From Ridgeia piscesae (Eukaryota > Annelida > Polychaeta > Sabellida > Siboglinidae), in NCBI GenBank assembly GCA_025642075.2, contig JAODUO010000114.1, positions 62,001 to 126,000 of the forward strand: a DNA stretch of 64,000 nucleotides, given 5' to 3'. The notes beneath the pieces are model-generated. The model did not search any database, was not told the origin of the DNA, and saw only the letters and a list, made by a program, of their open reading frames with translations. Numbering within the stretch: the first letter of the stretch is position 1; the number at the start of each line of letters is the position of its first letter. A program made the position numbers and the translations under genes. Positions 40,792-49,818 of this stretch are shown piece by piece.

Positions 40792-40892
40792 AAAGTGGCT
40801 GTGCCTCGGAGGACGAGGCCAATGATGATGAGACGGATGCAGCTGATACGCGGTTGGACCAGCTGAAGAAACGACTACACATAGAGCAGAAG
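40792..40892 (+). CDS. PKN: PKN exon 3 in window: acidic linker and start of HR1b
   Basis: Short exon entered in phase 1 (A|AA gives Lys) after TTTGCAG and left in phase 0 at CAGAAG|GTCAGT. It encodes SGCASEDEANDDETDAADTR, an acidic linker, followed by LDQLKKRLHIEQK. The latter aligns with the start of the second HR1 repeat of vertebrate PKN (LKALQKQLDIELK). It is small and lies between a 24-kb and a 6.3-kb intron. It is supported by agreement of both splice phases and by exact continuation into [15 protein letters not shown] in the next exon. The low-complexity acidic run may vary between species. Confidence 0.9.
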
Positions 40893-41570
40893 GTCAGTGT
40901 CACTGTGTTATTTCACTCTGTATGTGCATAAACTTTTGCTAGGCACACACCTACCGATTTTCAGCACACGCCTACCAACTAGTCGGCGTAAACTCAGTCG
41001 GCCGACTGCAGTCGATAGGTGTGTGCTGAAATATAGGCAGTCAACGCTAATCGGCAGTCGGCATTAGATAAGGACGTATCTGGTGTCGGCTGTGACGAAT
41101 CGGTGTCTGTCCGATGACAAACTAGCTGGTGTGTATTGTTTTTCCCCCCATAACACGACGGTCAGCGATAATATGGCCAATAAGAAGGCAAGGCACAATA
41201 TTATGACAGATCTCGACATAAGGCAATGCCTGCATGTTTTTTTTTAGTTTTCAAGCCAAATCGATCCACAACATTTTGTTTTTTATTTTAATATTTTATT
41301 TTAATATTTTACTAATATGGTGATCAACCAACGGTCGTTGGTAGTCGGTTGGTGTGCGGTGACTGGTGTGTGCTGGCAAAAAAAAAACATTTTAGAAAGA
41401 GGTTAATTGTTTTCTATCCTATAAATACTTAGTCATTGGTCATCATTGTTGTACATCACTTATTTGTAAAGACGGCGCCATAAATAAATGTAATTTTGGC
41501 ATGATTTTATTTCCCGCTTCCAATAGGAATCGCTACCGGGCGCATATATATTATATATATATAGCCTTAA

Positions 41571-43759: not shown

Positions 43760-44640
43760 GGAGTTGATGTATCTGTGTGAGTCAGCTGTGTTCTGTACAT
43801 CAGTTGTACCGGTAGATGTGTTTGTGTAAATTAACTGAGTTAATTGTGTTTGTATGAGTCAGCTGTGTTCAGTGTGTTAGACATTGATGTGTTTGTGTAT
43901 GTGATCAGCTGTGTTCTGGCCATCAGATGTTGATGTGTTTGCATGAATTTAATTGGTTGTGTTCTGTGCATTGATGTTTGTGTGAGATGGCTGTGTTCTG
44001 TGTGTCAGACATTGATATGTTTGTGTGAGTCGGCTGTGTTCTGTGTGTCAGACATTGATATGTTTGTGTGAGTCGGCTGTGTTCTGTGTGTCAGACATTG
44101 ATATGTTTGTATGAGACGGCTGTGTTCTGTGTGTCAGACGTTGATATGTTTGTGTGAGTCGGCTGTGTTCTGTGTGTCAGACGTTGATATGTTTGTGTGA
44201 GTCGGCTGTGTTCTGTGTGTCAGACGTTGATATGTTTGTGTGAGTCGGCTGTGTTCTGTGTGTCAGACGTTGATATGTTTGTGTGAGTCGGCTGTGTTCT
44301 GTGTATCAGACGTTGATATGTTTGTGTGAGTCGACTGTGTTCTGTGTGTCAGACGTTGATATGTTTGTGTGAGTCGGCTGTGTTCTGTGTGTCAGACGTT
44401 GATATGTTTGTGTGAGTCGGCTGTATTCTGTGTGTCAGACGTTGATATGTTTGTGTGAGTCGGCTGTGTTTTGTGTGTCAGACGTTGATATGTTTGTGAG
44501 TCTGGTGTGTTTTGTGTGTCAGATGTTGATATGTTTGGGTGTGTCGGCTGTGTTTTGTTTGTCAGATGTTGATATGTTTGTGTGAGTCGGCTGTATTCTG
44601 TGCATGAGACGTTGATGTGTTTGCATGAGTCGGCTGGTGT
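43760..44640. repeat. 43-bp minisatellite in PKN intron 3
   Basis: About 20 units of period ~43 bp with consensus words GTGTTCTGTGTGTCAGA, CGTTGATATG and TTTGTGTGAGTCGGCT. The units are most uniform in the centre (44000-44480). Each contains TTCTGTGTGTCAG, which looks like a weak 3' splice site. It begins directly beside the right end of the inverted-repeat element. Confidence 0.93.
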
Positions 44641-46451
44641 TTTGGGCATCTGAATGCCAGTACAGTGTATACCTCACACGCCCCCTGTCGAGGCGACTAC
44701 AAGCACGATCATATCGCCTTTTTGAACTCTTATCTCACCTAATGTAATTAGTTGAAGGCCCAGCTGTAACTTACACCTGCCTCGTGACTCTTGCCAAGTC
44801 CCAGCTTGTCCTACAACGATCGGCCCGGCCTAACCCTCCACCCGCGTGGGCCACAGCTGGTTGTCATGTACCATGTCCCCTGCCATCCCACCTGCACTTT
44901 GGGCCATACCAGCTGATTAACATCTACCTCTCTCCATCCTTCAAAACACACCAAACCTGTTTGTTGTGTTGTACTGATTTACACCTGCCTGGCTTAGCTG
45001 TGTAACAATAGTTATGATATAAGGTCAGATCATAGATGCACTTGTACTTGTAGTGTTGAGGATTTGTCAGTATGTAGTTAGTACTTGGTATTTTTAGTAA
45101 TAATGTTTATATATTTATGGTAGCATCTTTGACCAGGTTTTTATTTACAAAATGTGTGCCTGTGCCTAATTTATTTAATGATTTTTAGTCTTTTTGGCCG
45201 AATGTCCAACTGAGTAATGGCATCACTCCTGTATCTCAGAAACTGTTTGGGATCAATTTTTTTTTAATTCGGCATAGACATGTATTACATCAATGTCACT
45301 CACTACATGTAAGAAATGTTTAATTGATTGGATAGTTCTAAAGGGACTGTAGGGTTTTCACCCTTCAAGGGTAAATTATCAGTTTGCATATTTGTTTCAA
45401 AAACTGAATTAAATTTTTCTCTAATTTGTTTGTGTTGACATATCTTTGAGTAAAGAGATACTTTTGTATTGGGTATCCATGTTGTAATCCCATTGAGATT
45501 CACCAAAATCACCATACAATCCAAAGGGCCTATTGAGTCATAAAAAAAAAAAATTGTTGACTAGCACAGAATTAAAATTCACTATTTATGATGAAGACTT
45601 GAAAAGTCATGCATGATGACTATTATTAATTACCGTAGTTCAACCTGTTACTGCCATCAGTATGTGATTATTAATTACCAGGATAGGACCTGTGACTTCA
45701 CACAGTGACCTGTGAACACCACTGTGTAAACCTACACAACCATTTATTTAGTTGCTATTTGTGAACTTTACTAGTTCAAACAGACAGCTGGCACAACACA
45801 GTGGCTGGTGGATACAAGGTTTGGATCAGGCAGGCAGACACAGACAGTGTCTGTTCAACTTCCATGCGGAGCATTGAGTTACCATGAATTACTTATGACA
45901 CTGTAAGGCTTTCATTATGACCCGGTGCTGGCCAACTGGGACCCAACTCTGGGCCAACAAAGAACTAGAATTCCATTCAGTGTTCTGTGACAAATTCAAT
46001 GAATATCGTGTAACGCATTTAAAATAATAATGGCCACCGTTGCATTATACCTAAGGCTTGAGTTAACTGAACAACTTTGACAGGCAAATATTGTAACTGT
46101 CAGCACAGTGTCTATAAACTGGTAATCTGGAAAAAAATATCACCAGATTCCAACTGGCAAAACATTGACCATAGACACAAAAACAACAACACAAATGACT
46201 TTTAATCTGAAAAAAAGTAACCACATTTTACAGTACAAATTCAACTGAGAGAGAAAGATGGGGTTACGGTATTGATCTGCTCTGTATGCGATTAGGTATG
46301 ACGTCTTGACAGTGGCGAGTGATCTCTTATTCACCATTGGCCTCCCTTGCTTAGATAGTCTGGCACTACAGGTTAGACGTAAGAGAATGTAGAATGCCGA
46401 AGGAAGCCATGATCCGATCCATGTTTGCCACCAGTGCTCAGTGTTATTGTA
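44641..46451. other. Intron 3 stretch, nothing recognised
   Basis: No element termini or coding block recognised. Near the end the sequence grades into the acceptor array. Confidence 0.45.
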
Positions 46452-47192
46452 GGTAAAGCATGATGGAGATGTAGAGCAGTGGACCTCACTGTCACTGTGT
46501 GTTGTTTTCTGTAGGTGAAGCAGGGTACAGAGAACATGATAGAGATGTAGAGCAGTGGACCTCTCTGTCACTGGTGTTGTTTTCTGTAGGTGAAGCAGGG
46601 TACAGAGAACATGATAGAGATGTAGAGCAGTGGACCTCTCTGTCACTGGTGTTGTTTTCTGTAGGTGAAGCAGGGTACAGAGAACATGATAGAGATGTAG
46701 AGCAGTGGACCTCACTGTCACTGTGTGTTGTTTTCTGTAGGTGAAGCAGGGTACAGAGAACATGATGGAGATGTAGAGCAGTGGACCTCACTGTCACTGT
46801 GTGTTGTTTTCTGTAGGTGAAACAGGGTACAGAGAACATGATAGAGATGTAGAGCAGTGGACCTCACTGTCACTGTGTGTTGTTTTCTGTAGGTGAAACA
46901 GGGTACAGAGAACATGATAGAGATGTAGAGCAGTGGACCTCACTGTCACTGTGTGTTGTTTTCTGTAGGTGAAACAGGGTACAGAGAACATGATAGAGAT
47001 GTAGAGCAGTGGACCTCACTGTCACTGTGTGTTGTTTTCTGTAGGTGAAGCAGGGTACAGAGACCATGATGGAGATGTAGAGCAGTGGACCTCACTGTCA
47101 CTGTGTGTTGTTTTCTGTAGGTGAAACAGGGTACAGCATGATGGAGATGTAGAGCAGTGGACCTCACTGTCACTGTGTGTTGTTTTCTGTAG
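46452..47192 (+). repeat. Splice-acceptor minisatellite: nine decoy copies of exon 4 start
   Basis: Unit starts: 46515, 46590, 46665, 46741, 46817, 46893, 46969, 47045, 47121; the real exon is at 47193. A partial unit precedes them at 46452. Each unit is 75-76 bp (the last is 72): ~28 bp of GTGTTGTTTTCTGTAG-type tract ending in AG, then ~47 bp nearly identical to the exon 4 start (GTGAAGCAGGGTACAGAGAA..). In units 1-8 the exon-like frame meets TAG at codon 12, where the real exon has TAC. In unit 9 a 4-bp loss gives TGA at codon 7. So every unit carries an acceptor in the right phase followed by a premature stop. Confidence 0.95.
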
Positions 47193-47370
47193 GTGAAACA
47201 GGGTACAGAGAACATGATAGAGATGTACAGCAGTGGACCTTCAAAGGACAAAAAGCTACTTGCTGAGGCTCAGCAGATGTTTGCCGACGCCAAGCGCAAG
47301 ATTGAATACATCCGCATGCAGATCCTGCGCTCAGAGCAGCGCAGTGTCGACAACACGTTAGACAATGATA
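47193..47370 (+). CDS. PKN: PKN exon 4 in window: HR1b core
   Basis: Phase 0 in after TTTTCTGTAG, phase 1 out at A|GTAGGTGG. The peptide runs from [15 protein letters not shown] through [20 protein letters not shown] to [16 protein letters not shown]. It matches the PKN HR1b repeat (human PKN2 has VKQGAENMIQMYSNG...KDRKLLATAQQML...IRMQIL). It contributes the antiparallel helices that contact Rho-family GTPases. The exon is preceded by nine tandem near-copies of its own acceptor plus first ~47 bases (46515-47192). The real copy is the only one with TAC (Tyr) where the decoys have TAG or an earlier TGA, and the only one that continues into CCTTCAAAGGAC. That makes 47193 the productive start. 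Confidence 0.94.
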
Positions 47371-47694
47371 GTAGGTGGATGTGTGGATGGGTTGGAAGAA
47401 TTGGTTGTGTTGAGGGAAAGGTTATTTGTTGCCCTGGAGTGCATCTCATTGAGGTGGAGTCTACATAGTTTTGGAAGTCTGAGACATAGTGAGACAGCAC
47501 TCAACTGGAACACCTTGCCACAGTTTCCAGTGGTAGGATAAATAATAAGCAGCCATAGTGTGAACACAAATTAACACAAGTAGGTAGACATTTTAAAATG
47601 TTGAAGTCATAATTCACCTCATGATTATGGGGATAGTTGAAATACTGCTAAGTGTGTTTGAGTGTGTGCATTAACGTTGTGTGTCTTGTGACAG
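47371..47694. other. PKN intron 4
   Basis: 324-bp intron from A|GTAGGTGG to TGTGACAG. No repeats; the only intron between 46450 and 49655 without a splice-related minisatellite. Confidence 0.85.
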
Positions 47695-47849
47695 TGGCAC
47701 ATGAGACGGAGCCGTTCACGCCGCTTGACCAGAGGATAGAGGAGTTGCGCCACCACATCCACATAGAGTCCGCGGTGCAGGAGGGGGCAGAGAAGGCTAT
47801 CACCCTACTTCAGAGTGTGAAGTCTAATGACAAAAAGGCCATCCAGGAA
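47695..47849 (+). CDS. PKN: PKN exon 5 in window: start of HR1c
   Basis: Enters in phase 1 (A|TG gives Met) after GTGACAG and leaves in phase 0 at CAGGAA|GTGGGT. The peptide has PFTPLDQRIEELRHHIHIE, then SAVQEGAEKAITLLQSVKSN and KKAIQE. This corresponds to the third HR1 repeat (human PKN2: [44 protein letters not shown], compared here from family knowledge). HR1c is the least GTPase-engaged repeat in vertebrate PKNs. The intron that follows opens directly into a 43-bp minisatellite whose first bases are the donor itself. Confidence 0.93.
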
Positions 47850-48400
47850 GTGGGTACAGGCCGTGGTGTTGATGGGTGCAGGGTGTAATATAGGGTTGGT
47901 AGTGTGGCAGTACAGGGTGTAATGTAGGGTTGGTACAGGCCGTAGTGTGGCAGTACAGGGTGTAATGTAGGGTTGGTACAGGCCGTAGTGTGGCAGTACA
48001 GGGTGTAATGTAGGGTGGGTACAGGCTGTAGTGTGGCAGTACAGGATGTAATGTAGGGTTGGTCATAGTGTGACAGTACAGTGTGTAATGTAGGGTGGGT
48101 ACAGGCCATGGTGTCGATGGGTGCAGGGTGTAATATAGGGTTGGTCATAGTGTGGCGGTACAGGGTGTAATGTAGGGTGGGTACAGGCCACAGTGTGGCA
48201 GTACAGGATGTAATGTAGGGTGGGTACAGGCCATAGTGTGGCAGTACACGGTGTAATGTAGGGTGGTACAGGCTGTAGTGTGGCAGTACAGGGTGTAATG
48301 TAGGGTTGGTACAGGCCATAATGTGGCCGTACAGGGTGTAATGGGTTGGCACAGGCCGTAGTGTGGCAGTACAGGGTCTGGCCACAATGTATGGTAAAAG
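47850..48400 (+). repeat. 43-bp minisatellite starting at the intron 5 donor
   Basis: The intron begins GTGGGTACAGGCC and at once enters a ~43-bp repeat: GTACAGGCCGTAGTGTGGCA followed by GTACAGGGTGTAATGTAGGG-TTG. The donor-like word GTGGGTACAGG recurs near 48016, 48096, 48178 and 48218, while other units have TTGGTACAGG. A long minus-strand frame over this array (47810-48559) is a by-product. Confidence 0.92.
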
Positions 48401-48975: not shown

Positions 48976-49223
48976 GCCCAGAACAACTTTGTGGCGGCCA
49001 ACAGCAAGGGTGAACTGTTGAAACACTCACTACAGCAACGCATCAATGAACTTGAGCTCGAAAACCACGGAACCAGCAGCCGCGTCGACGCTCTCCGCCA
49101 GGAACTAGGTGGTGCCAGCAGTCCAACGATTCTGCGAATGGCTAGGGCATCACAAAACCAGTCATCGGCACCAGTCCGGCCACTGTCAAAGCCAGCTGCT
49201 GTCACCGGGAAGTTACATGTCAG
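48976..49223 (+). CDS. PKN: PKN exon 6 in window: end of HR1c, linker, start of C2-like domain
   Basis: Phase 0 in after ACCCCAG, phase 2 out at GTCAG|GTAGGG. It encodes AQNNFVAANSKGELLKHSLQ then QRINELELENHG (last HR1c helix), a Ser/Gln-rich linker, and SKPAAVTGKLHVR. The last motif is the first beta strand of the PKN C2-like domain (vertebrates: SKPAALTGTLEVRLMGCQD). The C2-like region of PKN has been linked to lipid response (arachidonic acid, phosphoinositides) and autoinhibition. The split Arg codon AG|A joins it to the next exon. The following 431-bp intron is almost completely made of tandem copies of the next exon's start. Confidence 0.93.
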
Positions 49224-49654
49224 GTAGGGACTTGGCTGTCATAATGTCATGGTGGACTCTGTACACTGTGTTAGTGTGTGTGTTGTAGACTGGTTGGCTG
49301 TCAGGACCTCATGGAGTAGTATGTCCACTGTGTGATTGTGTGTTGTAGACTGGTTGGCTGTCAGGACCTGATGGAAGAGTCTGTCCACTGTGTGAGTGTG
49401 TGTTGTAGACTGGTTGGCTGTCAGGACCTCATGGAGGAGTCTGTCCACTGTGTGAGTGTGTTTGTTGTAGACTGGTTGTCTGTCAAGACCTCATGGAGGA
49501 GCCTGTCCACTGTGTGAGTGGGTGTTGTAGATTGGTTGGCTGTCAGGACCTCATGGAGGAGTCTGTCCACAGTGTGAGTGTGTTTGTTGTAGACTGGTTG
49601 GCTGTCAGGACCTCATGGAGGAGTCTGTCCACTGTGTGAGTGTGTTTGTTGTAG
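49224..49654 (+). repeat. PKN intron 6 made of exon 7 acceptor repeats
   Basis: The whole 431-bp intron is 60-62 bp units. Clear units start at 49289, 49349, 49409, 49471, 49531 and 49593; the real exon is at 49655. Each has GTGTGTTTGTTGTAG-type tract, then ACTGGTTGGCTGTCAGGACC and ATGGAGGAGTCTGTCCAC, as in exon 7. The bases right after the donor (GTAGGGACTTGGCTGTCATA at 49224) also align to the unit, so the donor GTAGGG corresponds to the GTAGAC of the acceptors. Unit lengths (60, 60, 62, 60, 62, 62) mix frames. Using units 1-3 reads into a stop near 49515; using units 4-6 shifts frame relative to exon 7. Confidence 0.95.
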
Positions 49655-49818
49655 ACTGGTTGGCTGTCAGGACCTTATGGAGGAGTCTGTCCACCTTCAA
49701 AGGCGCGATATAGCAAGTACGCTTGTCACCAGTCCAGGGGAACGCACGCTGATGCGAGGAAAACAGAGCTTCCACACCCGCAGTAAGAACAAGTATAGTT
49801 TCAAGGAGGAACCTTCCA
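49655..49818 (+). CDS. PKN: PKN exon 7 in window: C2-like domain, variable loop
   Basis: Enters in phase 2 (AG|A gives Arg) after TTTGTTGTAG and leaves in phase 1 at TCCA|GTAGGTGG. It starts LVGCQDLMEESVH, matching the PKN C2 strand RLMGCQDILENV, then a basic Ser-rich loop that includes TRSKNKYSFKEEPS. The same loop in vertebrate PKNs also carries Ser/Arg-rich sequence and is spliced variably. Six upstream decoy units repeat the acceptor plus its first ~40 bases. The true exon is the copy that continues into CTTCAAAGGCGCG after TCTGTCCAC, and the only one that joins the next exon in phase (A|AC gives Asn). Confidence 0.92.

Follow-up and report, generated by a model that had tools for sequence, protein, structure and literature searches.

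Exon 4 of the PKN gene of Ridgeia piscesae is preceded by nine serial decoys of its own acceptor, and the array that they form is most probably a passenger, silent for the most part, and not a switch built for a purpose. The reading that fits best, to which we give a probability of roughly three in four, is that of a minisatellite of the "mirage" kind, whose leak into decoys would be removed by nonsense-mediated decay. The array belongs to a known class of structure, apparently in a new phylum, and the case seems to extend mirages from amphioxus into annelids. It bears on the old question of how cells choose the right splice site among look-alikes. Ten acceptors follow one another, near-identical from -34 to about +47, and the last alone should work. 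The choice must then depend on position, on the exon sequence further downstream or on how far away the next donor lies, and nature thus offers a clean way to test how an acceptor is chosen.

The PKN gene and the array before exon 4

The window, which is the whole stretch of 64,000 nucleotides analysed, corresponds to C114:62001-126000 in a 628-Mb assembly; positions are those of the window unless the contig is named. A tblastn search with six PKN relatives as queries places the PKN gene in 18 blocks from contig position 67852 to 152361, and the exons are numbered from the block at contig 67852 (exon 1) and that at contig 78647 (exon 2). The HR1 repeats and the kinase domain of PKN are present in this one locus, as seen by Pfam, PDB, tblastn and protein searches. 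The HR1 domain of exon 4 scores 51.2 bits in Pfam, and the PDB matches are three PKN1 chains, which we take to be HR1b and HR1c. Pfam searches of ten other ORFs of the window returned no domain. Exons 3 to 7 join in one open frame (Table 1), and this joined frame bears out the preliminary description in that exon 3 ends in phase 0 before exon 4. Its donor, AAG/gtcagt (a slash marks the splice boundary), would join any acceptor in the series. Codon 12 of exon 4 is TAC at 47226-47228, and the exon ends at the donor A/GTAGGT.

Table 1. Positions of PKN exons, splice-site units and associated arrays
Feature	Position	Strand	Description
PKN exon 3	40792..40892	+	direct reading, joined frame, alignment to L. 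satsuma protein; outside tblastn blocks
Degenerate unit 0	46440..46514	+	acceptor ttattgtag/GTAAAG, first base 46453; shortened exon copy, TAGAGCAG kept
Nine decoy units	46515..47192	+	lengths 75, 75, 76 (six units) and 72 bp; direct reading, TRF
Real exon 4 (HR1 domain)	47193..47370	+	frame, Pfam, PDB, tblastn
PKN exon 5	47695..47849	+	frame, boundaries, tblastn
43-bp array of intron 5	47850..48377	+	TRF start 47899; GTGGGTACAGG-like copies from exon-5 donor on
PKN exon 6	48976..49223	+	frame, tblastn
Intron 6	49224..49654	+	431 bp, of which 423 bp (98%) is a 60-62 bp acceptor array
PKN exon 7	49655..49818	+	frame, tblastn
Donor-type array	contig C114 289863-290741, outside the window	-	50 bp x 17.6, after coding-like exon

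The array before exon 4 is confirmed as real. Nine decoy units of 72-76 bp, with a degenerate extra unit further upstream, precede the exon, and TRF finds the repeat at 46459-47240 (period 76, 10.4 copies, 96% matches) with a score of 1431, far beyond chance. Every decoy unit consists of the acceptor ttttctgtag/GTGAA followed by about 48 nt of the exon-4 start. The nine exact copies of TTTTCTGTAG/GTGAA before the real exon have their first exon bases at 46515, 46590, 46665, 46741, 46817, 46893, 46969, 47045 and 47121, and the spacings between successive acceptors, ending with that to exon 4, are accordingly 75, 75, six times 76, and 72. The preliminary description had given all units 75-76 bp and the array the limits 46452-47210; the repeat structure and the array itself stand, but unit 9 is 72 bp long and the limits lie at about 46453-47240. 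The exon-4-like stretch is 48 nt long in the decoys, except in unit 9, where a loss of 4 nt leaves 44 nt, and the GATGTAGAGCAG context occurs 10 times within the array. Unit 7 matches the real exon 4 at bases 1-35 and 37-48, base 36 being G in the decoys and C in the exon. A candidate branch point, CTCAC, precedes the real acceptor by 30 nt and reads CTCTC before units 2 and 3. The array has the hallmarks of a mirage, with a repeat that runs across the intron/exon boundary (46459-47240) and splice signals within the units, the acceptor being intact in 9/9.

It is improbable that the array is an artefact of assembly, be it by collapse, expansion or outright invention. Assemblers easily err in tandem repeats, and the array stands at one place in one assembly: when 46430-47700 was searched as DNA against the 628-Mb assembly, with simple repeats skipped and only the best candidates scored, this place alone was returned, and so no second haplotype was seen. 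However, the units can be told apart by variants that come in a set order (A/G at base 6 and at base 27, A/C at base 20, and the 4-nt loss in unit 9), and the gene model of a relative shows a duplicate at this junction too, which also speaks against an artefact. The copy number is that of this one assembly and may not be exact.

That relative is Lamellibrachia satsuma, a siboglinid annelid, whose PKN2 protein of 1088 residues is the closest match to the joined PKN query (1728 bits) among the best 120 of 7992 candidates; within the same 120, further PKN matches come from Paralvinella (1237 bits) and Branchiostoma (about 1071-1093 bits), and camel PKN1 entries, which rank second and third with 1482 and 1467 bits, were set aside. 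The N-terminal part is identical to that of L. satsuma in 336 of 413 aligned columns, gaps counted. In the L. satsuma model, eight extra residues, VKQGTENV, stand ahead of VKQGTENM precisely where exons 3 and 4 meet, and this protein is the only one of 198 collected with two KQG(A/S/T)EN motifs. The insertion in this gene model may be read as a duplicate acceptor used by the predictor or by the cell; the extra VKQGTENV could be the predictor's error, or it could reflect a spliced duplicate acceptor, which would count against the passenger reading. Of 22 Branchiostoma PKN2 models, 7 (P0165, P0170, P0172, P0185, P0191, P0194 and P0197) have a 9-residue tandem repeat, DALSAFDFL, in a different exon, and the other 15 lack it; this repeat was left out of the evidence for mirages.

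As a side observation, the donor region of exon 3 and intron 3 (40882-40926) resembles the unit at 47002-47047, sharing TAGAGCAG and then TGTCAC..TGTGTT, with a local score of 32 that is one of three top ties among 12,996 windows on both strands in a post hoc comparison; the decoy TAG falls inside the stretch that resembles this donor region, again seen post hoc. Intron 3 also contains a 43-bp x 18.5 minisatellite (43847-44641), away from splice sites.

One shared stop and the choice of acceptor

Every decoy carries an in-frame stop, as had been described from the first reading. In units 1-8 it is a TAG at codon 12, where the real exon has TAC, and in unit 9 a TGA at codon 7, and so decoy use would bring a premature stop in 9/9. 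When units 1-8 are compared with the first 48 nt of exon 4, there is one fixed difference, the nonsense base, and three further sites are variable within the array. This single fixed difference makes the stops one nonsense event, copied by expansion. Of the 198 collected relatives, 179 have Tyr at codon 12, 11 have Phe, 5 have Leu and 3 have Ile, and TAC is accordingly taken as ancestral and TAG as derived. The preliminary description had offered, as the silent alternative, that the array was fixed with the stop, and this is the best fit, the nonsense base being the sole fixed difference. As a counterpoint to the passenger reading, of the 144 single changes that those 48 nt allow, only 7 create a stop codon, so that, with equal rates of change, a founder bearing a stop would come up in about 1 of 20 draws (about 0.05). 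Such a founder is mildly unusual, and as evidence this is weak.

The array was probably founded when about 28 nt of the end of intron 3 and about 48 nt of the start of exon 4 were together duplicated in tandem, an event that would have equipped each unit with a full acceptor. The founder would have acquired, or been born with, the TAC to TAG change at codon 12, and later exchange would have multiplied the unit to about ten copies. The gene would still work because exon 3 would mostly be spliced to the last acceptor. Units 5-7 are identical to the real exon-4 site from -34 to +35, and hence acceptor strength cannot single out the real site. The distance to the donor at 47371 is 178 nt from the real acceptor, as opposed to 250-856 nt from the decoys, and the last acceptor would be chosen because it alone has the rest of exon 4 and a donor at a normal exon distance. 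Exon definition is the simplest account of such a choice. RNA structure that conceals the decoys was considered and rejected, since 46960-47192 folds no better than shuffled sequences (z = -0.29; 69 of 200 shuffles as good).

Nonsense-mediated decay removes transcripts with premature stops. A leak into a decoy would thus run into the stop and the transcript would probably be lost, allowing the array to be tolerated as a passenger. In agreement with this, Farlow et al. argue that decay shields new splice-bearing insertions from selection (PMC2809761). It is very improbable that the decoy mRNA escapes decay and yields a truncated, HR1a-only fragment that binds Rho. The N-terminal HR1 blocks are indeed encoded before the array, and the HR1 repeat that follows them contains the stop, but this stop is far upstream of many exon junctions, which makes it a textbook decay target.

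Comparison with known systems

Poison exons and poison splice sites, when used, place a premature stop before the junctions that lie further downstream. The use of a poison exon and that of a worm decoy would have this same outcome; unlike poison exons, the worm decoys have a stop that is a single inherited change.

Mirages are described, in the available excerpts of the amphioxus work, as minisatellites across intron/exon boundaries, at both 5' and 3' boundaries (PMC3087553). The amphioxus mirages of Adh3 and of the globins BflGb6 and BflGb9, to which troponin C and PGBD5 are likened, are tandem repeats over a boundary, as is the worm array, and in both animals, as far as those excerpts go, the units contain splice signals, the genuine boundary lies beside the cluster, and acceptor and donor types occur, in the worm on a single contig. 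The host is an annelid and not a cephalochordate, and, unlike in the amphioxus mirages, every exon-4 acceptor decoy of the worm bears a stop. According to the same excerpts, the repeats could act as cryptic splice sites, and Adh3 data and globin RT-PCR suggest that mirages have no effect on regular splicing (PMC3087553); the accessible text of a second paper likewise gives no splicing interference for Adh and troponin C, and similar repeats in PGBD5 (PMC3902484). Among the matches listed, the name "mirage" for boundary arrays is found for amphioxus only (PMC3087553, PMC3902484), in a literature from which subscription journals are mostly absent. The accessible parts of papers on huntingtin and on Ridgeia yielded no mirages, and those on earthworm metallothionein describe repeats in intron 1 and duplications of the fourth exon, and no splice-boundary repeat.

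Sister arrays in the gene and on the contig

A second acceptor array occupies intron 6. It comprises six decoys (ttgtag/A(C/T)TGG) and a degenerate first unit, and its match extends into exon 7, to about 49694. Its sole fixed difference is synonymous and there is no founder stop; a stop inside the decoy's own unit occurs in 1/6, and a stop follows after 10 to 56 codons in 6/6. By our own yardstick, a poison-splicing device should show its stop-bearing design in the sister array too, and this array does not share it. Nearly filled by array, intron 6 is a candidate for having been built or rebuilt through repeats of the mirage type. The model of intron gain by tandem duplication, as outlined in the available text of PMC3087553, predicts a new intron filled with array, and the 98% share in intron 6 agrees with this. 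The 43-bp unit of intron 5 provides donor-like copies without exon sequence.

The exon-7 array also bears on a dual-specific or recursive mode of splicing, in which a decoy junction would be respliced to a later acceptor and decoy use would be harmless. Since the decoys read AG/GTGAAR, a junction of exon 3 with a decoy would regenerate a donor, AAG/GTGAAR. AGGT stands at the boundary in 9/9 units, and GTGAAR has 6/9 consensus positions in place and 7/9 after exon 3 is joined to unit 1, as against 8/9 for the native donor. The tandem AGGT sites of human polyubiquitin UBC work both ways in the accessible part of the report on them (PMC10809524), and the UBC array and the exon-4 array of the worm each line up AGGT sites within a tandem repeat. 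In what that part describes, however, the UBC repeats are coding, 228 nt long and frame-keeping, whereas the worm exon-4 units are intronic with stops, and their donor role is hypothetical. Moreover, GTGAAR is a middling donor, the same hexamer stands at the real exon junction, and the exon-7 array has AG/A without GT, so that recursive splicing cannot be the general way in which such arrays are tolerated. This explanation is thus unlikely.

A donor-type array lies elsewhere on the contig. Here the exon end and its donor are repeated, giving 13 exact CAG/GTAAGT including the genuine donor. Read-through of the donor hits a TAA inside it (AGG TAA), and hence use of a downstream donor would likewise give a stop. 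The exon peptide has no Pfam domain, so that its coding status is judged by the codon score from the PKN gene alone. In the few cases available, stops behind misplaced splice sites are common, and so a stop is no mark of design.

The 326,000 bp of contig contain 37 merged arrays that cover 48,214 bp (period 25 or more, score 130 or more). Within the PKN gene, 2 of 14 arrays overlap an exon, compared with 1.12 at random placement (p = 0.31), and 3 of 14 lie within 50 nt, compared with 1.38 (p = 0.15). Targeting of arrays to splice sites is therefore unsupported in this small test of 14 arrays, and an exon overlap near the random expectation fits incidental placement, with the little power that 14 arrays give. 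A screen for arrays that include exon sequence flagged 2 of the 37 arrays and missed the exon-7 array, indicating that boundary arrays are undercounted.

These results bear on the suggestion that the array is a poison-splicing dosage device, in which decoy capture would be regulated, the resulting stop would lead to decay, and repeat number would set PKN output. Such a device could draw on the full acceptor signals, right phase and premature stop of all nine decoys, and the partial duplicate at the same junction of the L. satsuma model suggests age. Against it, the decoy stop is one event copied, the sister array at exon 7 has no founder stop, array-exon overlap in PKN is no more than chance among 14 arrays, and the mirages described are said, in the excerpts available, to leave splicing undisturbed. 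A dosage device is thus improbable, and nothing in the present evidence favours it. It is also quite improbable that the array acts as a PKN rheostat, in which ten near-equivalent acceptors would compete and decoy loss would grow with copy number. If it did, expansion and contraction of the minisatellite would tune PKN dose between individuals or cells; variation of repeat number between individuals is plausible.

Two minor observations concern the wider set of arrays. A 27-bp x 34 array at contig 276702-277625 starts about 45 nt past another likely donor. The 11-mer ACCTTCAAAGG at 47237-47247 and 49693-49703 marks the point where both acceptor arrays cease to match the exon; these are its only two occurrences in 326 kb on both strands, where about 0.1 is expected per strand, and the two copies, noticed post hoc, stand in different codon frames, so that exchange between the two acceptor arrays and chance are both possible.
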